Source: CAVSKL01 sp963728475 [NCBI: Candidatus Eiseniibacteriota bacterium]
Lineage (GTDB): Bacteria; Eisenbacteria; RBG-16-71-46; JABDJR01
Assembly: GCA_963728475.1 (NCBI GenBank)
Contig: CAVSKL010000001.1
Location: forward strand, 434,001-498,000
Length of the DNA: 64,000 bases
Direction of reading: 5' to 3'
Shown: one piece after another, positions 8,763 through 46,784 of the stretch
Position numbering within the stretch: the stretch's first letter is position 1
Layout of the letters: every line of letters begins with the position of its first letter
Program-made: the position numbers and the translations under genes
Notes under the pieces: model-generated
Databases searched by the model: none
What the model was told of the DNA's origin: nothing
Seen by the model: the letters and a program-made list of their open reading frames with translations, nothing else

Positions 8763-8796
8763 TATCGTATTGTAACGCAGTACGATACCCGGGTAT
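8763..8796. repeat. Adjacent inverted repeats ahead of the palindrome array
   Basis: TATCGTA (8763-8769) and TACGATA (8781-8787) are perfect inverted arms. They overlap a second palindrome, ATACCCGGGTAT, at 8785-8796. This version of the CCCGGG palindrome is the form seen again near 46.2-46.4 kb. Confidence 0.55.
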
Positions 8797-8844
8797 TCGC
8801 CGCGATTGCCGCCCCTCCCCGGACCGGTGTCACGCAGCCTGCCG

Positions 8845-9133: not shown

Positions 9134-9135
9134 TA

Positions 9136-10277
9136 GTGTTCCGTAACGTAAGTTGTATTAAGATACCTCCAGGTACACTCTCTCCCTGGAGGGGTCATGG
9201 CCAACCATTCTCGTCCCATCGTCCTGGAGCCCGACGAGCGCGCCGAGCTCGAACGGCTCCAGCGCTCCAGCTCCGCCCCCGCCGGGTTGTCCCGGCGGGC
9301 CCGCGTCATCCTGCTCCTGGCCGATGACCTCTCCGGCGCCGAGGTCGCCCGCCTCACCGGCTACACCCCCGTCCAGGTCAGCCGCCTCCGACGCCGGTTC
9401 GCTGAGGAAGGCCTGGCCGGACTCCAGGACCGACCCCGTTCCGGCCGGCCCCGGACCATCTCCGACCGCAGGCGTGCCCGCATCGTTGCCATGACCCTCA
9501 AGCCTCCGGGCCACGGCCGCTCCCACTGGAGCTCCCGGGAGCTTGCCGCCGAGGTCGGCGTCTCCCACACCACCGTCCACCGCCTCTGGAAGGCCCACGA
9601 TCTCCGGCCCCACCAGGTCCAGACCTTCAAGTTCACCAGCGACCCCGATGCCGAGGAGAAGATCCACGACGTCGTCGGACTCTACTTGAACCCCCCCGAC
9701 CATGCGGTCGTCCTCAGCGTCGACGAGAAGACCCAGATCCAGGCCCTCAACCGCACCCAGCCCATCCTCCCCCTGCGCCCCGGGATCCCCGAGCGCCAGT
9801 CCCACGACTACCAGCGCAACGGCTTGACCAGCCTCTACACCGCCCTCGAGGTCGCCTCTGGCGAGGTCCTCGGCGAGTGCCGAGACCGGCACACCGCCGC
9901 CGACTTCCTCCACTTCATGAACCGCATCGCCAAGCAGTACCGCGGCGTCGAGCTCCACGTGATCCTCGACAACTCCTCGACCCACAAAACTCCCGCCGTC
10001 CAAGCGTGGCTGGAGGCCCATCCCCTCATCCACTTCCACTTCACCCCCACCGGCGCCTCCTGGCTCAACCTCGTCGAAGCCTGGTTCAGCATCCTCACTC
10101 GCAAGTCCGTCCGCCGCGGCTCCTTCGATTCGGTCAAGGCGTTGATCCAGCACATCCGCAACTACATCAAGCACTGGAACGACCACCCCGTCCCCTTCAT
10201 CTGGACCCGCGAACCCGCCGACCTCGTCAAGTAGGCCGTGCGCCGCCGTCGTTAACATGACTTCCAATACGGAACAC
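9136..10277. mobile_element. IS630-family insertion sequence with TA target duplication
   Basis: The element is 1142 bases. Its ends match as inverted repeats: the left starts GTGTTCCGTA and the right ends with the complement TACGGAACAC. Weaker identity (G..AAGT..T) continues inward for about 25 bases. It is flanked by TA at 9134-9135 and 10278-10279 within CTAG, the classical IS630 target and duplication. Removing the element plus one TA restores a continuous array unit (CACAACC-TA-GCACGCC), identical to the uninterrupted copy at 10376. The single transposase gene is intact, so the insertion may be recent. Confidence 0.92.
9197..10234 (+). CDS. IS630-family DDE transposase
   Basis: A 345-residue protein. 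The N-terminal half has helix-turn-helix modules typical of the family: EVARLTGYTPVQVSRLRRRF and ELAAEVGVSHTTVHRLWKAH, with a GRPRTI linker. The catalytic core shows the three acidic residues in order: VVLSVDEKTQIQ, HVILDNSSTHKT, and the Glu in SWLNLVEAWFS, followed by the family-typical RKSVRRGSF and IKHWNDHP. Length is typical for a single-frame IS630 transposase. The reading frame is complete with ATG at 9197 and a GGAGGGG-like ribosome binding site, so the protein is probably functional. It moves the flanking element into TA within CTAG. Confidence 0.95.
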   Translation: MANHSRPIVLEPDERAELERLQRSSSAPAGLSRRARVILLLADDLSGAEVARLTGYTPVQVSRLRRRFAEEGLAGLQDRPRSGRPRTISDRRRARIVAMTLKPPGHGRSHWSSRELAAEVGVSHTTVHRLWKAHDLRPHQVQTFKFTSDPDAEEKIHDVVGLYLNPPDHAVVLSVDEKTQIQALNRTQPILPLRPGIPERQSHDYQRNGLTSLYTALEVASGEVLGECRDRHTAADFLHFMNRIAKQYRGVELHVILDNSSTHKTPAVQAWLEAHPLIHFHFTPTGASWLNLVEAWFSILTRKSVRRGSFDSVKALIQHIRNYIKHWNDHPVPFIWTREPADLVK

Positions 10278-10279
10278 TA

Positions 10280-10840
10280 GCACGCCCGCCCCGCGCATTT
10301 GACCGGGGGAGACCCGGGTCCACGTTGCCGCGGGGGGGGGGCAGGCCAGTCACCGGGAATAGGGACCCGGGTCCACAACCTAGCACGCCGGGCCCGCGCA
10401 TTTGACCGGGGGAGACCCGGGTCCACATCGCCCCGCGTCGGTGCCGGATCGGATGGCGCACCCTTTGCGGTGGAGCCCCGGGTCCACGTTGCCGCGGGGG
10501 GGCGATCAGGCCAGTCACCGGGAATCGGGACCCGGGTCCACATCGCCCCGCGTCGGTGCCGGATCGGATGGCGCGAACCCTTCGGGGTTGGGCCCCGGGT
10601 CCACACCACGGCGCGGTCGCTCCGGACTCGTATCACGCACCCCGTCCGCGATCGGGACCCGAGTCCACGTTGCCGCGGGAGGGCGATCAGGCCAGTCGCC
10701 GGGAATAGGGGCCCGGGTCGCGGCGTAGAAAGCCGGGTTCGCCTCCCGTGGCGATCGACCACCCAAGTCGCCGAGCATAGGGACCCGGGTCCACAACCTG
10801 GCACGCCGGCCCCGCAAACTCGACCGGTAGAGGGACCGGG
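10280..10840. repeat. Right part of the GGACCCGGGTCC palindrome array
   Basis: Nine or more core palindromes continue right of the IS at about 10312, 10364, 10414, 10475, 10530, 10593, 10657, 10711 and 10783, with a degenerate copy near 10835. Spacing is 50-52 bases next to the IS and lengthens to 55-72 bases further right. A third spacer type (CATCGCCCCGCGTCGGTGCC then GGATCGGATGGCGC) appears twice. Sequence degrades toward the right end, as expected for an array decaying at its edge. Confidence 0.85.
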
Positions 10841-22596: not shown

Positions 22597-24807
22597 TCAG
22601 CCCCGGACGATCCGCGCGACCTGGACGGTGATGTTGTCGGGGCCGCCCCGGTCCCGGGCCAGCTCCACCAGCCGGCGGGCCGCCTCGGCGGGGGCGTTCC
22701 CCTGCACCGCCTCCTGGATCTCCTCGGGGGAGATCTCGCCGGAGAGCCCATCCGAGCACAGGACCACCGAATCGCCGTCCTCCAGCTCGATCGGCTCCAG
22801 GGAGACGTCGACCGAGACCTCGGGCTTCTCCCCCAGGCAGCGGGTGAGCACGTGGCTCCCCGCCCCCCGGGCGCCCATCCCGGCCCCCACCGCCCGCTGG
22901 AGTTCCCCGGCCAGGTTGTGGTCGCGGGTGAGTTGGTTGATGAATTCGCCGCTCACCAGGTAGACGCGGCTGTCGCCCACGTGCCCGGTGGAGAGCCTTC
23001 GGCCGTCGAAGTGGACGGCGGTGCAGGTGGTGCCCATGCCGTCCAGCCGGTGCGATCCCGAGGCCTGGGAGTAGACCATGTAGTTGGCGGCCCGGATCGC
23101 GCGCTCCAGGGCCTCGGCCCCCCGCTCGTGAGTCTCGTTGTCGAAGAAGGCGGCGCCCACCGTGTCCACCGCGAGCCGGCTCGCCACCTCGCCCGCGGCG
23201 GCGCCGCCCATGCCGTCGGCCACCACCAGGACCGCGCCCGCCTCGGCGCCGGGCCCGGAAAAGATCCCGAACGAGTCCTCGTTGTTCTCGCGCACGCACC
23301 CCAGGTCGCTCCGCGCCGCGACCTGAAGCTTCCATCCGCGCGGAAGAGCGATCGAACGCTCCTCGATCGTGGGCTCCGGCGGCGCGCCCGGGAAGGCCAG
23401 GATCGGCACCCCGTCGTCGTGGGATGCGGCCACCTTGGAGGGAACCGGGGCCGGCCGGCCGCTCCGGCTCAGGTGCGCATCCACCGCCCGCGACTCGGTC
23501 CGCCCCTCGGAGTAGTCCTCGAGCTCGTCCTCCCCCATGTCCGCGAACAGGGCGTCCGCGGAGTAGAGGTCGATCAGCGCCTCCACCACCTCCGGCGAGA
23601 ACTGGCTCCCGGCGTGGGCGAGCAGTTCGTCGAAGGCGGCCTCCGGGGACAGGCCGCGCCGGTAGGGCCGGTCCGAGGTCATGGCGTCGAACGCGGCCAC
23701 CGCCATGATGATCCGGCTTCCCACCGGGATCGCGTCCCCGGCCAGGCCCCGCGGATAGCCTTCCCCGTCCGGCTGTTCGTGGTGGGAAAAGACGATTTCG
23801 GCGGCGTTGGGATAGAAACGGAGCCGCCGGATGAGATCGGCGCCGATCCGGGGATGGGTCCGCAGGATCGACTGCTCGCTTTCGGTGAGCTTGCCCGGCT
23901 TGACCAGGATGTCGTGCTGGATGGCGGTGCGTCCGAGGTCGTGGAGGAGCGCCGCGTACTCCACCTCCTCCACTTCCTTCTCGGGGAGGCCCAGCCGGCG
24001 CGCCACCGCCGTGCACATGCGCGAGACCCGCTGCGAGTGGCCCCGGGTGAAGGGATCCGAGGCGTCCACCGCGGACATCAGCGTGCGAACCGCGCGCAGG
24101 TAGGCGCGCCGCGTCTCCACCCACAGCCTCATGGCGTAGCGCGCCAGAAGGAGCGGGATCAGGAAGAGGGCCGTCCCCACCGGGCCGATCCGAAGCTGGG
24201 TGAGGGCCAGAAAGAGCGCGAAGGGAAGCACCGCGGCCTGGTACCCGCCGACCTCGGTCAGCCACCCCCGCCAGGCCCCGGCCAGAGTGCCGCGTCCGTG
24301 GACCGAGGCCGCCACCGCGGCGAAGAGGCTCCATACCGCCCAGTACACCGCCCCCGCCGCCACCAACGGCGCCACCTGGGCGGGGTCGAGCGAGAACGCC
24401 GGGCCCGGCCGGCCGCCCAGGGCGACGAAGGCGAACCCCGCCGCCCCCGCCACCAGAACCGCGCGCCCCAGACGCTCCAACGCCTCGGGGAAGGGATTCC
24501 AGCGCTCACCGAGGTTCTGGACCAGCCGCCCGAAGATCGCCGCCCAGCAGCCGGCCACCGGGCCGAACGCGAGGATCGCCCCCAGGTCGAGGATGGGCGA
24601 GAGGCTCACCCGGCGCGAGCCGCGCAGAAGCGGCACCGGCGACGACGCCGCGATGGAGACCATGGCCAGCCACAGGACGAGGGTCGCGGTGGTCTCGGGA
24701 CCGCGCTGGAGCGAACCCGAAGCCCCGGTCATCCAGGCCAGCGCGCCCAGACCCACGATCGAGACCAGGGCGGCATGCAAACGGAGGGATGCGCGGGTCC
24801 GGCTCAA
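22597..24807 (-). CDS. Membrane HD-GYP phosphodiesterase fused to PP2C phosphatase
   Basis: A 736-residue protein with a TTG start at 24807 placed by AGGAAGGAGT seven bases upstream. Residues 8-225 contain about seven membrane segments. Residues 235-440 are an HD-GYP domain: AALLHDLGRTAIQHDILVKPGKL, HPRIGADLI, SHHEQPDGEGYPRGL, so both the HD metal motif and the GYP motif are intact and c-di-GMP breakdown is expected. Residues 495-735 are a PP2C Ser/Thr phosphatase: SDLGCVRENNEDSFG, VVADGMGGAAAGEVAS, GHVGDSRVYL, DGLSGEIS, GGPDNITVQV, with metal-binding Asp residues present. One polypeptide would couple c-di-GMP turnover and protein dephosphorylation, perhaps reversing the Ser/Thr kinase at 28201. 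Confidence 0.85.
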   Translation of the reverse strand: MSRTRASLRLHAALVSIVGLGALAWMTGASGSLQRGPETTATLVLWLAMVSIAASSPVPLLRGSRRVSLSPILDLGAILAFGPVAGCWAAIFGRLVQNLGERWNPFPEALERLGRAVLVAGAAGFAFVALGGRPGPAFSLDPAQVAPLVAAGAVYWAVWSLFAAVAASVHGRGTLAGAWRGWLTEVGGYQAAVLPFALFLALTQLRIGPVGTALFLIPLLLARYAMRLWVETRRAYLRAVRTLMSAVDASDPFTRGHSQRVSRMCTAVARRLGLPEKEVEEVEYAALLHDLGRTAIQHDILVKPGKLTESEQSILRTHPRIGADLIRRLRFYPNAAEIVFSHHEQPDGEGYPRGLAGDAIPVGSRIIMAVAAFDAMTSDRPYRRGLSPEAAFDELLAHAGSQFSPEVVEALIDLYSADALFADMGEDELEDYSEGRTESRAVDAHLSRSGRPAPVPSKVAASHDDGVPILAFPGAPPEPTIEERSIALPRGWKLQVAARSDLGCVRENNEDSFGIFSGPGAEAGAVLVVADGMGGAAAGEVASRLAVDTVGAAFFDNETHERGAEALERAIRAANYMVYSQASGSHRLDGMGTTCTAVHFDGRRLSTGHVGDSRVYLVSGEFINQLTRDHNLAGELQRAVGAGMGARGAGSHVLTRCLGEKPEVSVDVSLEPIELEDGDSVVLCSDGLSGEISPEEIQEAVQGNAPAEAARRLVELARDRGGPDNITVQVARIVRG

Positions 24808-26023: not shown

Positions 26024-27094
26024 CTACGCGGCCTCGGCCCGGGCCGGCGTCCGCTCGAACTGCGACCGGTCCACCGCATGTTCATAGGCCTCGTCCCCGG
26101 TGATCACCTCGCGGCGCACCAGCTCCCGGAGCGAGGCGTCCAGGCTTTGCATCCCCAGCCGCCGGCCGGCCTGGATCACCGAGCCCAGCTTGTGGGTGTT
26201 GCCGGCCCGGACCATGGACGCGGCGGCGTGGTTGTTGACCAGGATCTCGGCCACCATGAGCCGCCCGGAGCCGTCGGCCTTGCGCACGAGCTGCTGCGAG
26301 ATCACCGCGCGCAGGCTCTCGGCGAGCATGGTGCGGATCTGGTCCTGTCGCGCGGGCGGAAACACGTTGAGGATCCGGTCCACCGTGCGCGAGGCTCCGT
26401 TGGTGTGGAGGCTCCCCAGAACCTGGATGCCGGTCTCGGCCGCGGTGAGCGCCAGGGCGATGGTCTCGGCGTCGCGAAGCTCTCCCACCATGATTACGTC
26501 GGGATCCTCACGCACCGCGTTCCGGAGCGCCTCGGCGAAGGTCGGCGAGTGGAGGGGAACCTCGCGCTGCGTCACCACGCACTGCTTGAAGTCGTGCACG
26601 TACTCGATGGGGTCCTCGACCGTGACCACGTGGCCGTGGCGGGAGCGATTGACGAGGTCCACCATCGACGCCAGCGTGGTCGACTTTCCCGAACCGGTGG
26701 GTCCGGCGCAGAGGATCAGCCCCTTGGGCTGGGAGACGATGAGCTTGAGCTGGGGCGGGAGCCCCAGGGAGTCCCAACCGGGGATCTCGGTGGGCACCAC
26801 CCGCATCGACGCCCCGATCCCGTGCACGTGGTGGTAGACGTTGCAGCGGAAGCGGCCCAGGCCCTCCACCTCGTAGGCCAGGTCCACCGAGAGGTGTTCG
26901 GCCAGGCGGTCGCGCTCGTCCCGGCTGGTGAACTCCTCCACGATCCTCTCCATGTCCTCGGTGGTGAGGTCGCGGAAGCGGACCTTGTGGAGGACGCCCT
27001 GGATCCGGATGCGGGGAGGCTGGCCGGAGACCAGGTGCAGGTCGGACCCGCCCTGTTTCACCGCCAGTTCCAGGAAGGCGTTGATCCGGCTCAT
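26024..27094 (-). CDS. pilU: PilT/PilU-type twitching ATPase (second copy)
   Basis: A 356-residue secretion-type ATPase. GGSDLHLVSGQPPRIRIQG is the N-terminal PAS-like domain; ILCAGPTGSGKSTTLASMV is the Walker A, VVTVEDPIEYVH the Asp box, REDPDVIMVGELRDAETI the Walker B, and GSLHTNGASRTVDRI the His box. LVRKADGSGRLMVAEILVNNHAAASMVR is PilT-like. It powers type IV pilus retraction or assists PilT at the inner membrane base. It overlaps the preceding PilT gene by four bases. No pilin or PilB is in the window. The pilU symbol is used only because it is the second of two adjacent copies. Confidence 0.85.
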   Translation of the reverse strand: MSRINAFLELAVKQGGSDLHLVSGQPPRIRIQGVLHKVRFRDLTTEDMERIVEEFTSRDERDRLAEHLSVDLAYEVEGLGRFRCNVYHHVHGIGASMRVVPTEIPGWDSLGLPPQLKLIVSQPKGLILCAGPTGSGKSTTLASMVDLVNRSRHGHVVTVEDPIEYVHDFKQCVVTQREVPLHSPTFAEALRNAVREDPDVIMVGELRDAETIALALTAAETGIQVLGSLHTNGASRTVDRILNVFPPARQDQIRTMLAESLRAVISQQLVRKADGSGRLMVAEILVNNHAAASMVRAGNTHKLGSVIQAGRRLGMQSLDASLRELVRREVITGDEAYEHAVDRSQFERTPARAEAA

Positions 27095-28197
27095 GCCGCC
27101 GCCCCTCCGGCCTCTCCGCTCATGAGCTCGCGCAGGTCGGCCTGGGTCACGTACTTCAGGAACTCCCGCTTGTCGGCGGCGCGCAGAAAAGCCTCGTCGG
27201 GGTCCACGTGGCCGGCCTGGACCAGGCTCAACAGGGCCTGGTCCATGAGCTGCATCCCCAGGCGCCGCCCGGTGGCGATGGCCCCGGGGATCTGGTAAGT
27301 CTTCCCCTCGCGGATGAGCTGCGACACCGCCGGCGTCACCACTAGCACCTCGCAGACCGCCCGCCGCCCGCGCCCGTCGGCCACCCGCACCAGGTCCTGG
27401 CTGAGCACGCACTTCAGGTTCTCGGCCAGGGTGTGGGTGATCTGGGCCTGGGCGTCGGTGGGGAAGGCGTCCACGATGCGATGGATGGTCTGGTAGGCGC
27501 CGCGGGTGTGGAGGGTGCCGAACACCAGGTGTCCGGTCTCGGCGGCCTCGATGGCGAGCTGCACCGTTTCGTAGTCGCGGAGTTCGCCGACCAGGATCAC
27601 GTCGGGGTCCTCGCGGAGCGCCGCCCGCAACCCGTCCCGGAACGAGCGCACGTGCGTGCCCACCTCCCGCTGGATGATGAGCGCGGTCCGGCTCTCGTGC
27701 ACGAACTCGATGGGCTCCTCCAGGGTAACCACGGTCAGGTTCCGGTTGGAGTTGATCTCGTCCAGCATCGCGGCCAGGGTGGTGGACTTGCCGGTTCCGG
27801 TGCCGCCGGTCACCAGCACCAGCCCGGAACTGAGCGCGGTGAAGCTCGAGGCCACCGGCGGAAGCCCCAGGTCCGCCAGCTTGGGGACCGTGTCGGGAAT
27901 GACCCGGCAGATCGCGGCCAGTCCCCGTCGCTGGCGGAACACGTTGACCCGGAAGCGCCCGATCCCCTCCGCCTGGTAGGAGAGGTCCACCGCGCCGTGG
28001 GTGGCCAGCCGCTCGCGGTGGCGGTCTTCCAGGATTTCCAGGATCAGCGACCCGGTCTCGGCGGCGTCCAGCTCGCGGTACTTGAGCGGGGTGAGTTCCC
28101 CGTCCATCCGCACCAGCGGCGGCATTCCCACCGTGAGGTGGATGTCGGAGCAACCCTGCTCGCGCCCGAGTTGGAGAAAAGCGTGAAGCTTGGCCAT
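27091..28197 (-). CDS. pilT: PilT-type pilus retraction ATPase
   Basis: A 368-residue protein with the same architecture: GCSDIHLTVGMPPLVRMDGEL, LVLVTGGTGTGKSTTLAAMLDEI (Walker A), VVTLEEPIEFVHE, REDPDVILVGELRDYETVQ (Walker B), FGTLHTRGAYQTIHRIVDAFP. The Asp box has EE where the sister copy has ED, and the N-terminal PilT-like segment is retained. It starts four bases after the Ser/Thr kinase stop at 28201, so kinase, PilT and second PilT form one transcript with the FHA gene. This suggests kinase control of pilus retraction. Confidence 0.88.
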   Translation of the reverse strand: MAKLHAFLQLGREQGCSDIHLTVGMPPLVRMDGELTPLKYRELDAAETGSLILEILEDRHRERLATHGAVDLSYQAEGIGRFRVNVFRQRRGLAAICRVIPDTVPKLADLGLPPVASSFTALSSGLVLVTGGTGTGKSTTLAAMLDEINSNRNLTVVTLEEPIEFVHESRTALIIQREVGTHVRSFRDGLRAALREDPDVILVGELRDYETVQLAIEAAETGHLVFGTLHTRGAYQTIHRIVDAFPTDAQAQITHTLAENLKCVLSQDLVRVADGRGRRAVCEVLVVTPAVSQLIREGKTYQIPGAIATGRRLGMQLMDQALLSLVQAGHVDPDEAFLRAADKREFLKYVTQADLRELMSGEAGGAAA

Positions 28198-28200
28198 GGG

Positions 28201-30567
28201 CTAGGCCGCCATTCCGGGAAGGGCGAGCACGTCCTCGATCCGGCGGCGGAGCGCCTCGGCGTCGGGGGGCCGGTTCCCGGGGTCCCGCGCCATGGCCGCG
28301 TCGACCAGGGCCTCGGTCTCGGGGCTCACCCCGCAGAGATCGCGAAGCGGCGCGATCTCCCCCTCCAGGTGCTGGAACAGGATCTTGACCGGGGTGTCGC
28401 CCACGAAGGGCGTCCGCCCGCTCAGCATCTCGTAGAGGACCACCCCCACCGCGTAGATGTCGGCCCGGTGGTCCACCTCCTCCCCCCGGATCTGCTCGGG
28501 GGCCATGTATTCGGGGGTGCCGATCAGGAGCCCGCTCTTGGTGAGGCGCGACCCCAGCTGGTGCTCCACCGAGGCCAACCCGAAGTCCACGATCTTCACG
28601 ATGTCGTCGTCCCCGACCAGGATGTTCCCGGGCTTGATGTCGCGGTGCACCACGCCGGCCCGGTGCGCGGCGGAGAGCCCCTCGCACACCTGGGCCACGA
28701 TCCGGAGCGCGCGCGCGGGCTCGAGCGCGCCGTCGGCGGCCAGGATCTTCCCCAGGTCGCGCCCGGGGAAGAACTCCATGGAAACGCCGTGGCCCCCCTC
28801 CAGCTCCAGGAAGTCGAAGATGCGGATCACGTTCTTGTGGGTGATGCGGCGGGTGAGCCTGAGTTCCTGGGTGAAGCGGCGGATGGCCGCCTCGTCCTCG
28901 GAGAGATGCGGGTTGAGGATCTTGAGGATGATCCGCTCCTCCACCACCGAGTCCTCGACCAGGTAGATGGCGCCGAATCCGCCCTTGCCGACCCGCTCCA
29001 CCACCTTGTAGCGGCGAAGAAGCACCGTGCCCGGCGGGAGGTCGCGCAGGTTCACGATGACGGGAGCGGGGGCGCCTCCGGAAGCCCGCGCCGGCTCCGC
29101 GGGACGCGGCCTCACCGGCTCCTCGCGGCGCCCCGACTCGGGGCCGTAGGGCCGCTTCGGCTCCACCCGGAACGGGGCGCCTTCGCCCGAGGCCCCATCC
29201 CGCGCCCGCGCCGAAGCGGGGTCCGCGGGGGAACCGGACCGGCCCGGGTTCCGCCCCGGCGCCACCTTGCGGAGCGCGCCCAGCGCCTCGCGCCGGATCT
29301 CCTCGCTGTCGTGGCCGGAAGCGCGCTCCAGCGCGTCGGCGGCGCGCACGTCCCCGATCTCGCCCAGCGCCCGCGCGCAGAGCGCGGCCACCGCGGGATC
29401 GCGTTCCATGAGGGAGATCAAAGGCTCCACCGCGCGCGCGTCGCCGGTCTTGGCCAGGGCGTCGATGGATCGTTCCCGCACCCACCAGTCGCCGTCCTCC
29501 AGGGCGCGGATGAGGGGCTCCACCGCCTTCTCGCTGGGAATGGCGTTCAGGATCTCCACCGCGTAGCGCCGGACGAACTCGTCGTCGCTCCCGAGGAGCC
29601 CCAGCACCGCCTCCACCACCGTGTCGCCGCCCAGGGTTCCCAGGGCGTCGGCCGCCCGCACCCGGACCCACCAGTCCTCGTCCCGGAGCGCGCGCACCAG
29701 GTCCTGGACCGCTTCCGGGGTGGCCACCACGTTCAGCACCTCCACCGCCGCCCGGCGAACGTACTCGTCCTCGTCCTTGAGCACGTCCAGAAGGTGCGGC
29801 ACCGAGGTCGCGTCCCCCAGCTCCGAGACCGCGTCGATGGCCGCGGTCTGCACCTTGAGATCGGGGTCGCCCAGGCAGCGGACCAGGGAGGGGATGGCCT
29901 CCCGGGCGGCCAGGGCATGGAGCGCCTTCACCGTCTCCAGGCGCACGCTCTTGTGCCGGTCGGCCAGCGAGGCGGGGAGCGCCCGGGACACCCGGGGATC
30001 GTCGAACCGGGAGAGGAGCCGGACCATGTAGAGGCGGATCCACCAGTCGGGATGTTCGAGGAGCCGGATCATGTCCGGCAGCGCGGTGCTGTCGGCCCCC
30101 TTCTCCAGGAGCCGGAAGATCACGCCGCGCGCCTCGCTTCCCAGCTCGGGGAGGAGGTCGACCAGGGCGCGCGGGGAAAGGTCCCGAAGCCGGGCGGTGA
30201 GAATCGATTCCAGGGTGGCCTTGGAGAGCGTGCCGTCGGCGAGCAGGTCCAGGAGGCGCACCGGATCGTAACCGCGACCGGTCTCGAGGAGGCGTGCCAC
30301 CCCCGACACGGTGGCGGGGTTTCGCGAGCCCAGCGCCTCCAGGTACGCGGGCAGGGTCTCGTCGGTGAGAAGGCGGCCCAGCACCTCCAGCACCGGCTTC
30401 CGGGCGGAGCCGTGGCTGAGGCTGTCGAAGAGCCGGTCCAGGACCCCCGGGCCCATCCCGGCCAGCCGGTCCTCGAGGGCGGCGACGGCGTCGGGGGCGT
30501 GGCCGGGGTCCTTGAGTTCCCGAATGTACTTCCCGGCCTTCAGCCGCTGGACCAGATTCATCCGCAC
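28201..30567 (-). CDS. HEAT-repeat/Ser-Thr protein kinase
   Basis: A 788-residue protein. Residues 1-450 are about a dozen HEAT-like repeats (for example EAIPSLVRCLGDPDLKVQTAAIDAVSELGD and DEYVRRAAVEVLN, DWWVRVRAADALGTLG), a helical solenoid for protein contacts. A Pro/Arg/Gly-rich linker follows. Residues about 505-770 are a Hanks kinase: VGKGGFGAIYL, ERIILKILN (Lys), VVHRDIKPGNILV, KIVDFGLASVE, GTPEYMAPEQIRGEE. All catalytic residues are present. No membrane segment. A GTG at 30567 has GGAG five bases upstream; an ATG at 30561 is the alternative. HEAT repeats N-terminal to a kinase are unusual; sensor input is probably protein binding. Confidence 0.88.
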   Translation of the reverse strand: MRMNLVQRLKAGKYIRELKDPGHAPDAVAALEDRLAGMGPGVLDRLFDSLSHGSARKPVLEVLGRLLTDETLPAYLEALGSRNPATVSGVARLLETGRGYDPVRLLDLLADGTLSKATLESILTARLRDLSPRALVDLLPELGSEARGVIFRLLEKGADSTALPDMIRLLEHPDWWIRLYMVRLLSRFDDPRVSRALPASLADRHKSVRLETVKALHALAAREAIPSLVRCLGDPDLKVQTAAIDAVSELGDATSVPHLLDVLKDEDEYVRRAAVEVLNVVATPEAVQDLVRALRDEDWWVRVRAADALGTLGGDTVVEAVLGLLGSDDEFVRRYAVEILNAIPSEKAVEPLIRALEDGDWWVRERSIDALAKTGDARAVEPLISLMERDPAVAALCARALGEIGDVRAADALERASGHDSEEIRREALGALRKVAPGRNPGRSGSPADPASARARDGASGEGAPFRVEPKRPYGPESGRREEPVRPRPAEPARASGGAPAPVIVNLRDLPPGTVLLRRYKVVERVGKGGFGAIYLVEDSVVEERIILKILNPHLSEDEAAIRRFTQELRLTRRITHKNVIRIFDFLELEGGHGVSMEFFPGRDLGKILAADGALEPARALRIVAQVCEGLSAAHRAGVVHRDIKPGNILVGDDDIVKIVDFGLASVEHQLGSRLTKSGLLIGTPEYMAPEQIRGEEVDHRADIYAVGVVLYEMLSGRTPFVGDTPVKILFQHLEGEIAPLRDLCGVSPETEALVDAAMARDPGNRPPDAEALRRRIEDVLALPGMAA

Positions 30568-37908: not shown

Positions 37909-38958
37909 ATGAAGGACACCAGTATAACCCGGACGGCGCCCGCCACCGGCGGCGGACGCAACCGTACCGATGATCGCTCCCGCCGGCCGGCTGCGCGCCT
38001 CGCACGGACGGTGCTGTTCGCGGCCGCCCTGGCCGTGGCCTCCCTGACGCTTCTTCCCCCCGCCCCGCTTCTCGCCGACTTCGCGGTCTACCGCGGCCCG
38101 TCGCACATCCTGAGCCTGTTCGCCCTACCCGGCCAGACCGTGCCGTTCGACCTGGCCGCGTATTCGGGCAACGCCCCCCGTTTCATGGTCCGCTACCGGG
38201 TCGAGGCCCCGGACGGGGTCGACGTGCGGCTCGACGAGGCGTCGCGCTTTAACCTCACCGCGCCCCAGAGTTTCGGGATCTTCCCGGTGACCTTCCAGGA
38301 GGTCCCCGAGCAGGGACTTCCCGAACCGCTCCCCTACCGCGTCCAGCTCGTGGTCATGCATCCCGCCTCCGAGGTGGTCGACGGCAGGCTCGCCGGCTAC
38401 CCGGTGGGCATGTTCCCCGCCGACGACTCCGGAGAGCCGTGGACGTTCGAGGAACCGGCGGGGTTCGTGGAGGTCACGGACCAGAACGAGAACACGCTCC
38501 TGAGCGACCACATCACTCTCGGCGACCTGCAGTGCAAGCTGAACGCGCCCTATCCGCACTACCTGGCCACCCACACCGCGCTCCTGGTGAAGCTGGAGAC
38601 GCTGTCCGACCAGCTGCTCCAGCGCGGCCTTCCCGGCGATCACATCAAGGTGATGAGCGGTTTCCGCACCCCCGAGTACAACCGAGCCATCGGGAACCAC
38701 ACCACCTACAGCCGGCACATCGCCGGCGACGCCGCCGACATCTTCATCGACGGCGACGGCAACGGCGCCATGGACGACCTGAACCACGACGGCCGCATCA
38801 ACCGCAAGGATGCGCAGGTGGTGCTCTCGATCATCGACGCCATGGACCACTCGGAAACCTACGCCTCCCTGGTGGGCGGAGCATCGGCCTACCGGGCCAC
38901 CCACGAGCACGGCCCGTTCGTTCACGTGGATACCCGGGGATACCCCGCCCGCTGGTAG
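37909..38958 (+). CDS. Secreted DUF882/M15-like D-Ala carboxypeptidase-type protein
   Basis: About 349 residues from ATG 37909, with AAGGA upstream; a TTG 168 bases earlier is in frame but encodes low-complexity. A hydrophobic stretch (VLFAAALAVASLTLLPPAPLLA) after a basic N-terminus is the export signal. The C-terminal 150 residues match DUF882/peptidase M15: VMSGFRTPEYNRAIG, HIAGDAADIFIDGDGN (zinc ligand pattern HxxGxAxD) and GPFVHVDTRG (final zinc His). DDLNHDGRINRKDA resembles a calcium-type loop. Probably trims peptidoglycan stem peptides. The first half is an unrecognised beta-rich domain. Confidence 0.78.
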   Translation: MKDTSITRTAPATGGGRNRTDDRSRRPAARLARTVLFAAALAVASLTLLPPAPLLADFAVYRGPSHILSLFALPGQTVPFDLAAYSGNAPRFMVRYRVEAPDGVDVRLDEASRFNLTAPQSFGIFPVTFQEVPEQGLPEPLPYRVQLVVMHPASEVVDGRLAGYPVGMFPADDSGEPWTFEEPAGFVEVTDQNENTLLSDHITLGDLQCKLNAPYPHYLATHTALLVKLETLSDQLLQRGLPGDHIKVMSGFRTPEYNRAIGNHTTYSRHIAGDAADIFIDGDGNGAMDDLNHDGRINRKDAQVVLSIIDAMDHSETYASLVGGASAYRATHEHGPFVHVDTRGYPARW

Positions 38959-38975
38959 TCGCCCGCCAAGCTCTT

Positions 38976-39001
38976 CCCGCGTAACGCATTCCGCGGGTTT
39001 T
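38976..39001 (+). terminator. Rho-independent terminator after the M15-like gene
   Basis: CCCGCG (38976-38981) and CGCGGG (38992-38997) form a 6-bp stem around a 10-base loop and are followed directly by TTTT. It lies 18 bases past the stop codon. Confidence 0.65.
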
Positions 39002-39118
39002 CGGCGGCTCCCTCATCCCCGCCCGAGGCCCCACCGTGGGCCCTTTCGCCCTCAAGCCGGATACCTCCGGGTCCGATAATGGGTTGGGGCGCATCTCTTC
39101 TCACGCGAAGGCTCGAGC

Positions 39119-40549
39119 GTGAAATCCAAGGCGAAGTTCATAGTCGCGAGCGTGATCGTACTGGCCACCGCGCTGGTCGCGATTGCCCTTTGGCGACAGC
39201 AACGTTGGGAGATCGAACACCTCCTCCTCTGGGCGGCGGTGTGTATCCTGGGCGAGCGTTTCTGGCTCAAGACTCAGTCCGGGGACTCGGTCCAGAGCCT
39301 GGCCGCGGCCGTGAATCTCGCCGCCATTCTCGTCTTGGACCCGTGGGCGGCGCTTCTGGTCATCTACGGCAGCACCGTGACCGGGAACTTCCTCTTCCGC
39401 CGCTCCAAGTGGTACCGCGCCCTCTACAACGGCTCACAGATCACCCTGTGTGCGGGAGCTGCGCTCTTCGTGCTCCACCTTCTCGGCGGCTCGTCGCTCG
39501 TCGACGTCTATCATCTAGCGGGTAAAGCCCGCCTGGACGCGGTGGCCGACACCCTGGCCGACCGCCGCTTCCTCTCCGCCTATCTCCTGGCCGGGCTCGC
39601 CTATTTCGGGGTGAACCACGCGATCATGGCCATGCTCATGAACGCGCTCACCGGCCGGCGGATCTGGGTGATCCTCAAGGAAAGCAGCCTTTACGCGGCG
39701 GAAATCCAGAGCAACCTCGCTCAATTCCTCCTTCCGCCCCTCCTCGTTCTGCTCTATGGAGGGCTAGGAGCGGTGGGCCTCGTGGCGGTCTTTGCCTGCC
39801 TGGGGCTGGTGCATGCGGCCAACCGCCGGTACATGGCGCTGGCCGCGGCCCAGGACAACCTGGTGCTGTCCGAGCGCATGACCGCCATGGGCGAGATGGC
39901 GGAGGAGATCGGACAGAGCCTCGGGAACTACCTCTCCGAACTGAAGCTCAGCGCCAACCGGCTCTTCCAGCGCGCCCGCCACAGCGACGGGGAGAAGGTG
40001 CTGAAGAGCGCCGAGATCGTGCACGTCAACGTGGACAACATGTCGGCGCTGGTGGACGGGCTCGCCGCCTTCTCGCACCAGGAGACCCACAAGGTCCCCA
40101 CCGACCTGAACGAACTCCTGCGCCGGACGGTGGATTTCGTGAAGCCGCAGAACCGGTTCGACAGCGTCCACTTCAAGATCACCCCCGACCCGATCCTGCC
40201 CCTGGTCAACGTGGATCCCGCCCAGATCCAGCAGGTGCTGATCAACCTGCTCACCAACGCCTCGGACGCGCTCAAGGAAGTGGACCGCCCCATCAAGAAG
40301 ATCTTCATCGAGACCGCCTACGACCCCGACGCCCAGCGGATCCGGATCGCGGTCACCGACAACGGGCCCGGCGTCCCCGAGGCGCACCTGAACCGGGTCT
40401 TCGAGCCGCACTTCACCACCAAGGTGACCGGCCACGGATTTGGGCTCTCCACCGTGTTCCGGATCGCCACCAACCACAAGGGGCGGATCACCGCCTCGAA
40501 CCAGCCCGGTGGCGGCGCGCGCTTCTTGCTCGACCTGCCCAACGCCTGA
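39119..40549 (+). CDS. Membrane histidine-kinase-like protein lacking the phospho-acceptor His
   Basis: A 476-residue protein with a GTG start at 39119 (AAGG seven bases upstream). Residues 1-245 contain about seven membrane helices. The dimerisation region SERMTAMGEMAEEIGQSLGNYL aligns with the usual xxMxxxGEMAxxxAHEINNPL, but the phosphorylated His is replaced by Gln (Q266) and the following Glu by Ser. The ATPase domain is intact: NLLTNASDAL (N box), VTDNGPGVPE (G1), FEPHFTTKVTGHGFGLSTV (F and G2). It may signal without autophosphorylation on this site, or act as an ATP-dependent sensor. It is upstream of the sigma-54 micropeptide gene in the same direction, with no response regulator adjacent. 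Confidence 0.82.
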   Translation: MKSKAKFIVASVIVLATALVAIALWRQQRWEIEHLLLWAAVCILGERFWLKTQSGDSVQSLAAAVNLAAILVLDPWAALLVIYGSTVTGNFLFRRSKWYRALYNGSQITLCAGAALFVLHLLGGSSLVDVYHLAGKARLDAVADTLADRRFLSAYLLAGLAYFGVNHAIMAMLMNALTGRRIWVILKESSLYAAEIQSNLAQFLLPPLLVLLYGGLGAVGLVAVFACLGLVHAANRRYMALAAAQDNLVLSERMTAMGEMAEEIGQSLGNYLSELKLSANRLFQRARHSDGEKVLKSAEIVHVNVDNMSALVDGLAAFSHQETHKVPTDLNELLRRTVDFVKPQNRFDSVHFKITPDPILPLVNVDPAQIQQVLINLLTNASDALKEVDRPIKKIFIETAYDPDAQRIRIAVTDNGPGVPEAHLNRVFEPHFTTKVTGHGFGLSTVFRIATNHKGRITASNQPGGGARFLLDLPNA

Positions 40550-40783
40550 GCCGCGCTCCGGCCCGGATCCCCCCGTTTGTCGTCTGGCACGGACACGTGG
40601 TGTCGTCAATAATTGACTACAGGTTAACGCCTTACAAATCCATTGATTGGCGCTTCCGGGCCGGTTGGCGTCCGATTCTGTTGACGCCCTTCGGGAGCGT
40701 CTCGAGTCCGGGCGGAGCCCGGGCCAAGATTTAACCCCCTCCCCTATAGCGCGTTACGCCAATTCACCCAGCCGCATTGCAAA

Positions 40784-40798
40784 TGGCACGACGGTTGC
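40784..40798 (+). promoter_or_regulatory. Sigma-54 (RpoN) promoter
   Basis: TGGCAC, five bases (GACGG), then TTGC matches the -24/-12 consensus TGGCAC-N5-TTGC at every fixed position. GG at 40785-40786 and GC at 40797-40798 have the required spacing. Transcription would start near 40810, giving a 56-base leader before the ATG at 40866. The 230 bases upstream are free of genes and more AT-rich than the surroundings, with room for an enhancer-binding activator. Confidence 0.8.
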
Positions 40799-40865
40799 GT
40801 ATATAGCCGGCGTGGTTGGCGTGACCACCTGAAGACTAGAAGAAAAAGGAAGGGGGTAGACCTCC

Positions 40866-40958
40866 ATGCTCGGCATCATCAGCAAAGTCGTTTCTCTCGC
40901 GGGACAGTGGGAGTGGCTCGGTCAGTGGGAATGGCTCGGTCAGTGGGAGTGGTTCTAA
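40866..40958 (+). CDS. Small Trp-rich repeat peptide, 30 residues
   Basis: The peptide begins MLGIISKVVSLA and continues with three GQWEW(L/F) units, ending in Phe. An AAGGGGG ribosome binding site lies nine bases before the ATG. The three 18-base repeats differ by synonymous changes at Gly (GGA/GGT) and Glu (GAG/GAA) and only one residue change (final Leu to Phe), which points to selection on the protein. The promoter upstream and the terminator downstream frame it as a single-gene transcript. The N-terminal helix is amphipathic and the repeat is rich in Trp, so membrane contact is possible. No family is known to me; a signal, toxin-like, or leader peptide are all conceivable. Confidence 0.75.
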   Translation: MLGIISKVVSLAGQWEWLGQWEWLGQWEWF

Positions 40959-40971
40959 AGGCCTAGCCGGC

Positions 40972-41005
40972 GTGCGGGGGCGGGTACGTCCCCGCACTGT
41001 TTTTG
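40972..41005 (+). terminator. Rho-independent terminator of the micropeptide gene
   Basis: A perfect 8-bp stem, GTGCGGGG (40972-40979) with CCCCGCAC (40990-40997), is followed by TGTTTTTG. It starts 13 bases after the stop codon and gives a transcript of about 190 bases. Confidence 0.85.
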
Positions 41006-41084
41006 AGCCCCGACGGACAGCCGCCCCGAAGCTCCCCAGACCAACCGGGTCTTAGCGGGAGGTTCGTCCGGCCGGGGCTCGGGT

Positions 41085-41171
41085 GTGGTAGCGCACCGAT
41101 CCGGGAATCGCTGCTTCACCACCAAGACCTGCGGGGTCCTCCCCTGTGACCCCGCGGGTCTCCTTTTTTTT
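41085..41171 (+). terminator. Structured element with a strong second terminator
   Basis: GTGGT and AGCG at 41085-41093 pair with CGCT and ACCAC at 41109-41122. A 14-bp stem follows (AGACCTGCGGGGTC, 41125-41138, with GACCCCGCGGGTCT, 41148-41161, one G-U pair) and then a run of eight to nine T. It is either the 3' end of a small RNA starting near 41010, a backup terminator, or a leader attenuator for the gene at 41261. No riboswitch class is recognised. Confidence 0.65.
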
Positions 41172-41260
41172 CCGACGGAATCCCGCGTTTCCTCCCAACC
41201 GGCGGCGCCTCGCCGGCCGCCGGGCGCGGATCTCCGCTCCGCCTGCCGATACCCGGAATT

Positions 41261-42907
41261 GTGGACCCACACTCCCAAGTCGGGCGCGGACCGGCATCCT
41301 CCGCCCTCGCCCCCCAGTCCGACGCCGACCTCCAGAGCCTGGACCTGACCCACTCTCCCCGGATGGGAGACGCGGGGGCCCTGCTGGTGCGCGCGGCGGT
41401 GGCCCGGCCGGTGGCTCAGACCCTGGAGGCCGTCAGCTCCGAGGAAATCCCCCGGGACCGGCTGCGGCGGGTGGCCGAGGTCTTCCGCAAGCTCGATCCC
41501 GCCGATGCCGCCGAGCTCCTCACCGCCGCCGGGCGGGGGGCGCTCCGGCAGGAGGCCTCCGGGCTCCGGCTCCTCTTCTCCTTCCTCGAGGTCAAGCGCC
41601 CCGGGGTGGAGGTTCTGCGCCAGCTCCGGGTGCTCTCCAGTCTCGAGCGGGTGGCGTTGCGGCTCGTGGCTGGCAACTGGCAGGAACCCGAGGCCCTGGA
41701 GCAGGTGGATTCGATCTTCCCCATCCAGGAGGTGCTTCAGGAGGCGGGCCGGGTGGGGGCGCTGGACCTCGGGCTAGAGGCGCTGCCGCGCGACGATGTC
41801 GCCGTGCGCGCGACCCTCGAACACATCCGGATCTGGTTCCACCGGCGCGAGAAGCGGCTGGCCGCGGGCGAGCGGCTGGAGCCCGACTCGCTGAACTTCA
41901 TCGCCCAGCTCGCCATGCTCGAGATCAACCTCATGGAGAAGCGGGTCTCCCGGCTGGCCGGGCTCATCGACCCCTACGACGTGCGCGCGATGGGGCGGCT
42001 CATGCCGATCCTGAGCCGGTACGACCAGGACATCGAGCACATGAAGAACGTGGTGACCCGGCTCACCACCTACGAACCCTTTTTCGACCGGCTCATGACC
42101 ATGGAGCACGCCCTCTCCCCCAGCGAGATGGACCGCGTGCAGCGCGCGCTCGGCCGCCACCCGGTGGGCCACCCGGTGGGGTCGATCCTGCGGGCCATGC
42201 GCGCGAACCCGATCCTGGACCGCGAGTTCACCTTCCTGGTGTCGCTGGTCCACCAGATCGCCGTGCTCCGGGAGCAGGCGGTGAAGGGCTCGGCGCGGCC
42301 GGACGTCCTGTCCATCATGCTCGAGGTCCTGGAGAAGGGGCGCGGCGGCACCGGGATCCGCATCAGCATCGAGCCCGAGATCGCCGACTCCATCTGGCCC
42401 ACGGTGCAGAGCTGGGGGGTGCTCCGGCGGTCGCCGGAGTCGCTGGAGGTGCGCTATCGCGAGGACCGGGCGCTGGACTTCATCCTGGTGGACGGGACGC
42501 CGCGGCTCCCCGCCCTTCCCGAGGAACGGAAGCTCCCCGACCTGACCCTCAAGGAACTCTGCCGGCTCCAGCTCTCCAACGAGCCCTTCATCCTGGGGGT
42601 GCTGGAGAACCCCAAGGCGACCTCGGTGCCGGGGCTGGTGGCCATGCTGGTGACCATCAGCAAGAGCCTGCGCATTCTCGATCGCATCATGCGGGATCGC
42701 ACCCTCTACACCGGGCCCGCCAACAAGGACGTGCCGCGGCTGCTCCTCATGAGTCCGGCCCGCATCCCGGTGAACTCGCTCAAGCGGTTCATCCACGTGC
42801 GATTCGTGTCGAAGATGGATCTGGAGAGGATGGCCCGGCAGGGCGCCGACATTCGCGCCGAGGTGCGCCGGGAGATCGTGCGTTACCTGGAGCAGATGAA
42901 GAAATAG
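41261..42907 (+). CDS. Large alpha-helical hypothetical protein
   Basis: About 548 residues, GTG start at 41261, with an in-frame ATG at 41363 as an alternative; neither has a strong ribosome binding site. The whole chain is predicted helical, with HEAT-like stretches (VARPVAQTLEAVSSEEIPRDRLRRVAEVFRKLDP), a later SLVHQIAVLREQAV and a conserved-looking C-terminus (SLKRFIHVRFVSKMDLERMA). No signal peptide, membrane helix or catalytic motif. Similar helical-repeat proteins often scaffold signalling complexes. It lies downstream of a strong terminator-like hairpin, so expression may be attenuated. Function unknown. Confidence 0.6.
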   Translation: MDPHSQVGRGPASSALAPQSDADLQSLDLTHSPRMGDAGALLVRAAVARPVAQTLEAVSSEEIPRDRLRRVAEVFRKLDPADAAELLTAAGRGALRQEASGLRLLFSFLEVKRPGVEVLRQLRVLSSLERVALRLVAGNWQEPEALEQVDSIFPIQEVLQEAGRVGALDLGLEALPRDDVAVRATLEHIRIWFHRREKRLAAGERLEPDSLNFIAQLAMLEINLMEKRVSRLAGLIDPYDVRAMGRLMPILSRYDQDIEHMKNVVTRLTTYEPFFDRLMTMEHALSPSEMDRVQRALGRHPVGHPVGSILRAMRANPILDREFTFLVSLVHQIAVLREQAVKGSARPDVLSIMLEVLEKGRGGTGIRISIEPEIADSIWPTVQSWGVLRRSPESLEVRYREDRALDFILVDGTPRLPALPEERKLPDLTLKELCRLQLSNEPFILGVLENPKATSVPGLVAMLVTISKSLRILDRIMRDRTLYTGPANKDVPRLLLMSPARIPVNSLKRFIHVRFVSKMDLERMARQGADIRAEVRREIVRYLEQMKK

Positions 42908-42918
42908 GGGTCGGAGGG

Positions 42919-43122
42919 TCAGAGATCGTAGCCGGTGGGCTCCTCCTCGTCCTCGTCCAGCTCGGAGTAGTCGTCGTCGAAGAGGACCGCACCGTACTCG
43001 CCGCACTCCGGGCACTCGTATTCTTCCGGCGACTCCGCCTCCTCCAGGCAGAGTTCGCAGACCTCGCGCCCGCAGGTCTCGCACGCGGCCACCGTCACCT
43101 CGTCATGGTCGGGGCATTTCAT
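42919..43122 (-). CDS. Small zinc-ribbon/B-box-like protein with acidic tail
   Basis: 67 residues from ATG 43122 (GGAGGTGG eight bases upstream). MKCPDHDEVTVAACETCGREVCELCLEE then ECPECGEY gives Cys/His pairs spaced as in B-box or double zinc ribbons. The C-terminus is acidic (FDDDYSELDEDEEE). Possibly a nucleic-acid or protein-binding adaptor. The longer in-frame extension upstream is unsupported. It converges with the helical protein gene at 42907. Confidence 0.7.
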   Translation of the reverse strand: MKCPDHDEVTVAACETCGREVCELCLEEAESPEEYECPECGEYGAVLFDDDYSELDEDEEEPTGYDL

Positions 43123-43155
43123 GACGCTTCCACCTCCACCGCCGCGCCAGACCCG

Positions 43156-43184
43156 GGAGCGGGCCGGATCCACCGGCCCGCTCC
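43156..43184 (-). terminator. Perfect 12-bp stem-loop after the TPR gene
   Basis: GGAGCGGGCCGG (43156-43167) pairs exactly with CCGGCCCGCTCC (43173-43184) around a 5-base loop. It lies 23 bases past the TPR gene stop. No T-tract follows, so it may be a Rho-assisted terminator or mRNA end protector. Confidence 0.5.
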
Positions 43185-43206
43185 GAGGTAATCGGGGAAG
43201 AGACTC

Positions 43207-44559
43207 TTACCAGGTCAGGGTGCCGACCTTGAGTCCCAGCTTGTAGGCGGTGACCGACTTCTTTGCGGTCCAGAACCAGACGTTGATCTGGTCGCCGCTC
43301 CCGGCTTCCTGGAAGGTGTAGCCGGCGTCCGGAGGACCCAGGCTCTGGAAGGCCTCCGCTTCCTCCTTCTGCGGGCTGGCGGAAACAGGGTCCAGCTTGG
43401 TGCCCTGGAGGCCCTTCGAGACCGAGAGCGCCGTCACCGCATCGTCCTGCTCCCCGGCCTGGATGAGCGCCTGGGCCATGAGCGTCCAGGCCGCGGGGTC
43501 GGTGGGCGAGATCGCGAGGTAGTCCTTGATCGCCGCCTTGGCCTCCTGGTAGTCCTGCGCGTTGAGAAGCGCCTGCATCCGATTGAACAGCGCGTTCGCG
43601 TGGAACTCGCTGTTCTCCCCTTCGGCCGGAACCAGGGCCGCAGCTTTCTGGAAGTCCTCGGCCGCCTTCAGGAACCGCGCCTTGGCCTCGGGCGAAACCG
43701 CGGCCGCGTCGCCGGTATCGGCCCGCGCGATGGCGGAACCCGCCTCCAGGTTGGCCGAACCCATGAGGAAGACCGCGTCGGGGGTGTCCGCCTTTTCGGC
43801 CAGGACCTTGTGGAGGTACTCGATGGCGGAGTCCGACTTGGCCACGGCCTCCGGCCCGCTCTGGTTCGTCATCTCGTCGATGAGTGTCCGGGCTGCGTCC
43901 AGGTAGATCTCGTCCCGCAGATCCTTCAAGTCCTGGTTCTGGGGATCGATCTGGAGCGCGGTCTCCACCAGCATCGCGGCCTCGGGCTTACGCCCGGCCT
44001 TGATCAGCACCACGGCGCCCTGCTGATAGGCCTTGACCTCGCTCGGGTTCAGAATCCGGGCGATGCGGAGCTGGAGCGCGGCCTCCTCGAACTTCTCATC
44101 CTTGGCCAGCTTCAACCCGGCGTTGTAATGATCCACCCAGTAGTGCTGCCGGCTCTCCCGCACGAACTTCTGGTTCTTCTTGCTGTCGTCCTGGGCGAGA
44201 GAGCTATCGAACTCCGCGCCCGCGTGCTGGAACATGGCCACGGCGGTGTCCACGGCGGCCTGCTCGGCCTCCTTGGTCGCAGCCTGGACCAGTTGATCCT
44301 GCATGACGATGTCTGCGTATTGAGCCAGGGCGATGGCGTAACGAGCCCGGTACTCACCCTTCTCGGGGCAGGTCTCGGCCGCGAGCCTGAAGTGCTCGAC
44401 GGCCTTGTCCCAGACCTTCTGCGAGAAGTAGAGCTTGCCGCTCCGAAACTCGTTGGCGCAGTTCACCTTCTGGTTCTGGGCGGCGGCAGGATGTACCAGG
44501 GACACCGTGACCGCCGCCGCGGCCAGCGTGATACCCAGGATTCTCGACCGCAGATTCAA
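43207..44559 (-). CDS. Secreted TPR-repeat protein
   Basis: 450 residues with a TTG start at 44559 chosen because AGGAGGT lies six bases upstream and a signal peptide follows (ILGITLAAAAVTVSLVHPAAAQ); longer in-frame reading lacks these. Tetratricopeptide-like helices repeat through the mature protein: LYFSQKVWDKAVEHFRLAAETCP, GLKLAKDEKFEEAALQLRIARILNP, GRKPEAAMLVETALQIDPQN and AQDYQEAKAAIKDYLAISPTD. The C-terminal 50 residues are a small beta-rich tail (YTFQEAGSGDQINVWFW). Likely a periplasmic scaffold. It is followed by a strong stem-loop. Confidence 0.82.
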   Translation of the reverse strand: MNLRSRILGITLAAAAVTVSLVHPAAAQNQKVNCANEFRSGKLYFSQKVWDKAVEHFRLAAETCPEKGEYRARYAIALAQYADIVMQDQLVQAATKEAEQAAVDTAVAMFQHAGAEFDSSLAQDDSKKNQKFVRESRQHYWVDHYNAGLKLAKDEKFEEAALQLRIARILNPSEVKAYQQGAVVLIKAGRKPEAAMLVETALQIDPQNQDLKDLRDEIYLDAARTLIDEMTNQSGPEAVAKSDSAIEYLHKVLAEKADTPDAVFLMGSANLEAGSAIARADTGDAAAVSPEAKARFLKAAEDFQKAAALVPAEGENSEFHANALFNRMQALLNAQDYQEAKAAIKDYLAISPTDPAAWTLMAQALIQAGEQDDAVTALSVSKGLQGTKLDPVSASPQKEEAEAFQSLGPPDAGYTFQEAGSGDQINVWFWTAKKSVTAYKLGLKVGTLTW

Positions 44560-45776: not shown

Positions 45777-46784
45777 GAGCGCCTCCTTCGGGGTGAAGTT
45801 GGCGACGGAGTGTAGCACAGGGATGGAGCGGCCGGCCGAGGCCCCGGGCGAGGGCCCGGGCGAGGGCGCCGGGGGGCGCGGGGCGAGGGCGCCGCCCCGG
45901 GGGGGCGCCGGCTCTCGGGTGGTGAAGGCATTGCTAGGACGAGCCTCGGGGCACACCGGGGTGCCGCGCCCGCGGATGGGTCCGGGTTGTGTGCCGTTGT
46001 GCCGGCGTGCGGCCGCCGGGCTCCGCGGGGTGCTGCGCCCGTGGACGGGCTGCTCGGACGGGACGGTCCCCGCCGCACGAGACCGGGGACGTCCCGGTGT
46101 CGGTGCCGCTGCGGCTCGGGCAGGAACTCAAAACCCGCTGAGGAAGCGCCGATCGAGAAGCTTCGCAGTCGTGGCCGGTGCGGTCTCGGACTGAACCCTG
46201 GTATCTCCAAGCACCCCAACGCAATACCCGGGTTCTCGGGGTTCGACCGACGCCGGTGGCCGTAGCTTTCAGGCGCTCGGGAGCGGCGGCCCGGGCCGAA
46301 CCCGGGTATCTTACAGCGCTCCAACCCGATACCCGGGTTCTCGGGGCTCGACCGGCGACCCGGGCCGAACCCGGGTATCTCCAAGTGCCACAATGTAATA
46401 CCCGGGTCCGCGATCCCGCACCCGGACATTCTGCTTGCCAGGCTCCCTGCACGAGACAGGCGAGCCCCGCGTCCCGGCGATTCCGGGAGAAGCGCGGCGC
46501 GAACGTGAGGGCAATACTCTCCCGTGAACCACCGGACCCCGGCGGCTCGGGGTCCCCGTCTTCGTGGATGAAGACCGGGGAACGGGCGTCGCCGATCGCG
46601 CGCGGCCGGGCCCCGTCCCCGTCCCGATCGGCCGTACCGGTCCGGGCACCGCCGATCCTCCCGGGGTGGCTCGAGCCCCTCGCTTGACCCTCCCCCAGAC
46701 CAGGTTCACACTGGGTCGTCTACCGGATTATCGTGATTCCCCGCGCCCCGATCCGGCCGCACCGTCGGACGGAGGTTCCAGAAA
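45777..46784. other. 1-kb noncoding region with palindrome cluster
   Basis: Between adenosine deaminase and the BsuPI-like gene no open reading frame has coding features. At 45841-45903 there are several GGGCGAGGGC-type short repeats. The palindrome cluster at 46193-46408 is listed separately. A TTCACA (46705) and GATTAT (46726) pair with only 15 bases between them may be a weak promoter for the gene at 46785. Confidence 0.5.
46193..46408. repeat. Three inverted CCCGGG repeat pairs
   Basis: Three pairs of a 13-base motif face each other: GAACCCTGGTATC (46193) with AATACCCGGGTTC (about 46222), GAACCCGGGTATC (46298) with GATACCCGGGTTC (46328), and GAACCCGGGTATC (46367) with AATACCCGGGTCC (46396). 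Arms are about 29-31 bases apart start to start, and the loops resemble each other (TCCAAG...CCCAA or CCACAATG). Each pair can form a stem of about 11-13 bp. TCTCGGGG(C/T)TCGACCG follows two of the pairs. Confidence 0.8.

Follow-up and report, generated by a model that had tools for sequence, protein, structure and literature searches.

The stretch of DNA analysed here, referred to as the window (64 kb), contains an intergenic region of 711 bases between the stop of a kinase-like gene (39119-40549) and a frame of 548 codons on the same strand (41261-42907). Read along the + strand, this region presents a dyad, a promoter, a leader with a Shine-Dalgarno (SD) site, a short frame, a terminator and a folded stretch with a second terminator. 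The features are the following.

39119..40549, + strand: gene resembling a membrane sensor kinase, in which Gln266 takes the place of the H-box His
40601..40621, no strand assigned: dyad TGTCGTCAAT-A-ATTGACTACA, lying 162 bases ahead of the promoter, a candidate upstream activator site
40784..40798, + strand: sigma-54-type promoter TGGCAC-N5-TTGC, the sole exact match in the window
40809..40865, + strand: predicted leader, its SD site partly closed in a GGGGG/CCUCC stem
40866..40958, + strand: 30-codon frame MLGIISKVVSLA(GQWEW[L/F])x3, ATG start, stop TAA
40902..40955, + strand: three 18-base tandem repeats (GQWEWL, GQWEWL, GQWEWF)
40972..41004, + strand: intrinsic terminator of the small gene, stem at 40972-40997
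41004..41172, + strand: strongly folded element with two hairpins and a second terminator

Promoter and flanking genes

The sequence-only reading had described a perfect promoter, and TGGCACGACGGTTGC at 40784-40798 was indeed the only exact TGGCAC-N5-TTGC in the 64 kb on both strands, with a mean of 0.067 such matches per window in 60 dinucleotide shuffles. By this pattern, which represents the -24/-12 elements, the site at 40784 would rank as a sigma-54-dependent promoter, a type active only on demand; it is also exact for TTGCNTA. The consensus of such promoters has a Y ahead of TGG and a W following TTGC. These edges were absent (0 matches with at most 1 mismatch). When the longer pattern with TTGCNTA was allowed up to 2 mismatches, 1 match was found against 1.58 expected, which is not rarer than chance, so for the promoter it is exactness alone that is notable.

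Upstream of the promoter, the dyad has arms of 10 bases with 1 mismatch, and shuffling the upstream region 500 times gave an equal dyad in 25 cases; as a candidate activator site it is therefore borderline and suggestive only. When up to 2 mismatches were allowed, its core, GTCAATAATTGAC, matched nowhere else in the window, and at least one match appeared in 37 of 100 shuffled windows. None of the window's six reading frames held a GAFTGA-type activator motif. An IHF-like site at 40636-40649 (1 mismatch) was discounted, since 4 such matches were found against 2.79 expected in shuffles.

The kinase-like gene had been proposed to sit upstream in the control of the small gene. The kinase itself stood up to analysis: a HATPase_c match indicated that the ATP-binding domain is present, ZraS was the best solved-structure match, and the top two NCBIfam models were AtoS and ZraS, followed by a VirA-like kinase, FixL, CckA and others, with none among the best 25 of 86 models reaching the NCBIfam cut-off. 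AtoS and ZraS partner NtrC-type activators. However, the H-box His fell opposite Gln266 in the alignments with both ZraS and FixL; given this residue the protein may lack normal autophosphorylation, and simple control by the kinase is doubtful because Gln replaces the H-box His. The protein encoded at 41261-42907 (548 residues) had no Pfam or NCBIfam match, its AlphaFold model was too poor to be of use (pLDDT 39), and viral scans with the kinase and with this neighbour retrieved no relatives.

Leader, frame and terminator

Sigma-54-dependent transcription starts 12 bases after the GC of the promoter, and by this rule the start is predicted at about 40809-40810, some 56 bases ahead of the ATG, as in the 56-base leader with a ribosome binding site described earlier. 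The SD sequence AAGGGGGT at 40850-40857 lies 8 bases before the ATG and pairs with a 16S tail at -12.1 kcal/mol, a value equalled by 5 of 3000 random 20-mers. It ranked third among 19 starts (its own included), behind only 55559 (-12.2) and 62714 (-12.6); the 18 other starts were picked mechanically, and some may be wrong. In the predicted fold, bases 40852-40856 of the SD site are mostly paired. An 11-base exact repeat, TAGCCGGCGTG, is found at 40804-40814, over the predicted transcription start, and again at 40964-40974, just before the terminator, with no third copy in the window.

The frame at 40866-40958 translates as MLGIISKVVSLAGQWEWLGQWEWLGQWEWF and contains the three GQWEW(L/F) units claimed for it. 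A closed ATG frame of at least 30 codons was present in 86 of 2000 dinucleotide shuffles of 40809-40971, and one with an equally good SD site in 2 of 2000; at least 15 bases ahead of the ATG were required, and these figures are rough because shuffling breaks the tandem repeat. Among the 152 ATG frames of 25-45 codons in the window (nested starts counted), this was the sole case with at least six Trp. The TAA stop lies 13 bases before the stem of a clean Rho-independent terminator, also as earlier described, with 11 pairs, a loop of 4 and then TG-TTTTT (-23.3 kcal/mol). That promoter, ribosome binding site, frame and terminator follow one another in proper order supports an arrangement beyond chance.

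The alternative of chance, with a small intergenic tandem duplication and a site resembling a promoter mistaken together for a gene, gains from the borderline dyad, from the many tandem arrays in the window (41 rows, some overlapping), and from the codon use and the missing homologues described below. We nonetheless consider it unlikely: the promoter, the SD site with its frame, and the terminator are each improbable by chance and are correctly ordered.

The differences between the 18-base repeats had been taken as a sign of selection on the peptide. Repeats 2 and 3 are each 89% identical to repeat 1, and two of the three differences are silent, the third replacing L with F; by our reading, the remaining two forward frames would have one silent change and none, respectively. 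As a sign of selection this is weak, with a probability of 0.06-0.09 for at least two of three under neutrality. The codon choice of the frame was unlike that of genes in the window (as large a departure arose in 3 of 4000 simulations) and was compatible with plain base composition (0.13). Its coding score per codon, 0.11, placed it 32nd among the 152 short frames, and 18 long frames taken to be genes scored 0.39-0.65. Within its own stretch the frame had the best score of all six, at +4.3 bits; the five competitors, two of which contain stops, ranged from -16 to -50. Codon use speaks against a long-standing translation of the frame.

RNA folding and the regulatory RNA alternatives

The predicted transcript of the small gene was more stable than its shuffles (z -2.3), of which 3 in 200 reached its stability. 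When the + strand from 38000 to 44000 was folded in 80 tiles of 150 bases, the tile at 40850, which covers the small gene and its terminator, had the second lowest z (-3.4). The lowest (-4.4) belonged to the tile at 41075, in the adjoining element. This element, 41004-41172, begins at the U-run of the small gene's terminator, has a folding energy of -95 kcal/mol (z -5.8; none of 200 shuffles was as stable; ends picked by eye) and closes with a second terminator whose stem at 41125-41161 precedes a T run. Matches to it in the rest of the window did not exceed 13 bases. With this folded element and its own terminator abutting the small gene, and with the 548-codon frame beginning at 41261, the surroundings are not the otherwise empty DNA that the sequence-only reading had reported. 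The element could be a folded leader of 41261, an RNA gene of its own or a sigma-54 read-through RNA, and it may rival the peptide in interest. Rfam contained no family at gathering score for either the small gene or 41004-41172; six weak matches, with E values between 0.23 and 2.3, fell short of that score and were set aside.

As a unit, the small gene would work most like two Pseudomonas RNAs covered in PMC8395346. NrsZ, of about 226 nt, depends on NtrB/C and RpoN and lies in the ntrC-PA5126 intergenic region; CrcZ, which involves RpoN, CbrB and IHF, lies in the cbrB-pcnB intergenic region (PMC8395346). They share with the small gene a short unit, its own sigma-54 promoter and a position beside a two-component gene (PMC8395346). 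They differ in being described as RNAs and in lying next to the activator genes ntrC and cbrB, whereas the unit here carries a 30-codon frame behind a strong SD site and has a kinase-like neighbour.

Since NrsZ and CrcZ are RNAs, the main rival to a peptide gene is a small RNA, about 195 bases long and dependent on sigma-54, in which the frame would be incidental or secondary and the repeats would act at the RNA level, as elements do in decoy RNAs. The stable fold, the layout resembling that of NrsZ and CrcZ (PMC8395346) and a codon use that is not gene-like all point that way. Against it stand a very strong and properly spaced SD site, a stop just ahead of the terminator, the silence of two of the three repeat changes within the frame, the lack of an Rfam match at gathering score, and the kinase-like gene upstream where NrsZ and CrcZ adjoin activator genes. 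On balance we hold the small RNA to be somewhat unlikely. A decoy of the GGA type for CsrA was ruled out: 40809-41004 has 5 GGA, and its base composition alone predicts 5.3.

Leader peptides of attenuators with Trp codons are encoded by a short Trp-rich frame before a terminator, which is the likeness offered by this locus. In such an arrangement, ribosome stalling at the six Trp codons would decide termination before 41261. The codons lie just ahead of the terminator, a frame on the same strand follows, and the Trp count is the one unmatched among the 152 short ATG frames. This tryptophan-sensing explanation is nevertheless very improbable. The best upstream pairings of the terminator arms reached -11.1 and -12.1 kcal/mol against the -23.3 kcal/mol of the terminator, and a canonical Trp attenuator was ruled out for want of a strong competing hairpin. 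In addition, there is a second terminator downstream, and the 41261 protein matched neither Pfam nor NCBIfam and so is not identified as the product of a Trp gene.

The peptide, its relatives and a possible function

The statement that the peptide belongs to no described family held for the Pfam, NCBIfam, PADLOC and PDB searches and for tblastn against plasmids and phages. No family was found in Pfam, NCBIfam or PADLOC, and there were no homologues in viral contigs (three patterns, 0 matches each), plasmids, phages or species genomes. Two partial tblastn matches, in a Streptomyces plasmid (E 2) and in a phage (E 8), were discounted as weak, as were nine PDB sequences named neuraminidase (E 1.5-1.7). 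The species genomes were scanned for two adjacent units, W[DE]W[LF][GSR][QE]W[DE]W, a pattern that would miss single-unit or diverged relatives, and one stretch was returned. It was rejected as a homologue: both of its matches are antisense to Ser-Ala-Pro-Thr-Pro repeats of a 507-residue frame from a cyanobacterium, kinase-like by our reading. At the DNA level, phages gave no match, and matches in five plasmid records (E 0.02-0.7) were discounted; those listed all lay at 41191-41253, outside the gene. Literature searches found nothing on GQWEWLGQWEW, QWEWL or a WEWL tandem-repeat bacterial peptide, nothing on a sigma54-linked intergenic tryptophan-rich small protein and nothing relevant for sigma54 in Eisenbacteria.

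The peptide has one Lys, no Arg, three Glu and no Asp, and a net charge of about -2. Its MLGIISKVVSLA segment, which holds the Lys, is mostly hydrophobic, and by eye the peptide has no recognisable signal sequence. The Wimley-White interface sum was -5.9 kcal/mol for the whole peptide and -1.65 for each GQWEWL unit. In an extended strand the Trp residues of the repeats share one face, and only 0.28% of 5000 permutations of the 18-residue repeat part were as amphipathic in a strand-like sense, for an angle range set after the W-x-W spacing had been seen. The same spacing sets Trp on one strand face in the designed tryptophan-zipper hairpins; here three tandem units occur without designed turns, and the peptide was modelled as a helix. 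AlphaFold, run without an alignment, predicted a single helix over residues 2-28 (pLDDT 89, pTM 0.37), a form in which repeats of six residues would distribute the Trp round the axis and not on one face. Lone short peptides are often modelled as helices. For strand and helix alike, binding to the membrane surface is therefore inferred.

Short length, the lack of a leader and richness in Trp are also traits of leaderless bacteriocins such as aureocin A53 and lacticin Q, and a membrane-active, perhaps secreted, anti-cell peptide would start with Met and lack a leader as this one does. Aureocin A53 has 51 residues with five Trp and is highly cationic (PMC11580447). The peptide described here has 30 residues in tandem hexapeptides and is anionic, so that it does not resemble the cationic, Trp-rich aureocin A53 type (PMC11580447). 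It had no PADLOC or NCBIfam match, and no transporter family was found among the nine neighbour proteins scanned, two of which matched no family at all. We give the bacteriocin explanation very little weight.

The reading that we favour, tentatively, is that of an orphan, free-standing, sigma-54-dependent gene for an unprocessed 30-residue peptide that seeks the membrane surface. The points for a peptide gene are the uniqueness of the promoter, the rarity of the frame with its SD site, the strength of that site, a stop near the terminator, the silent repeat changes, the interface sum, the strand amphipathicity and an AtoS/ZraS-like kinase upstream. The points against are codon use, the fact that no homologue was found, the hairpin over the SD site, the helical AlphaFold model, the absence of a GAFTGA-type motif from the window, the borderline dyad and the Gln in place of His in the kinase.

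Under this favoured reading, the gene would be activated, when a two-component system fires, by an enhancer-binding protein whose own gene lies beyond the window and whose binding site may be the dyad at 40601, and the hairpin over the SD site would tune translation. The peptide, which has one Lys and three Glu and would, if extended, gather its six Trp on one face, would settle at the surface of the cytoplasmic membrane and there modulate an envelope protein or the bilayer. The repeats would have grown by 18-base tandem duplication with the frame preserved, and the gene may be young or lineage-restricted. A bolder version is distinctly less likely: a new kind of sigma-54-controlled micropeptide, whose GQWEWL strands with a Trp face would form an inner-membrane ladder, tunable by repeat length, that reports or buffers the state of the envelope. 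If it were true, each 18-base tandem duplication would alter the avidity of the ladder and leave the frame intact. The short sigma-54 transcripts used here for comparison, NrsZ and CrcZ, both belong to the small RNAs. A full sigma-54 unit that combines a peptide of Trp repeats with a strong SD site would offer a clean test of whether the regulon produces dedicated micropeptides as well, and likewise of the birth of tiny genes by in-frame tandem duplication.

Elsewhere in the window, the gene at 22597-24807 combines HD_5 and PP2C phosphatase domains in one chain, and that at 28201-30567 fuses HEAT repeats to a protein kinase domain and adjoins a T2SSE-family ATPase gene (27091-28197). The palindrome ACCCGGGT occurs in 16 copies: ten flank both sides of a DDE_3 transposase gene at 9197-10234 (copies at 8787-10790), five lie at 46226-46407 in or near 76-base repeats, and one is at 58033.
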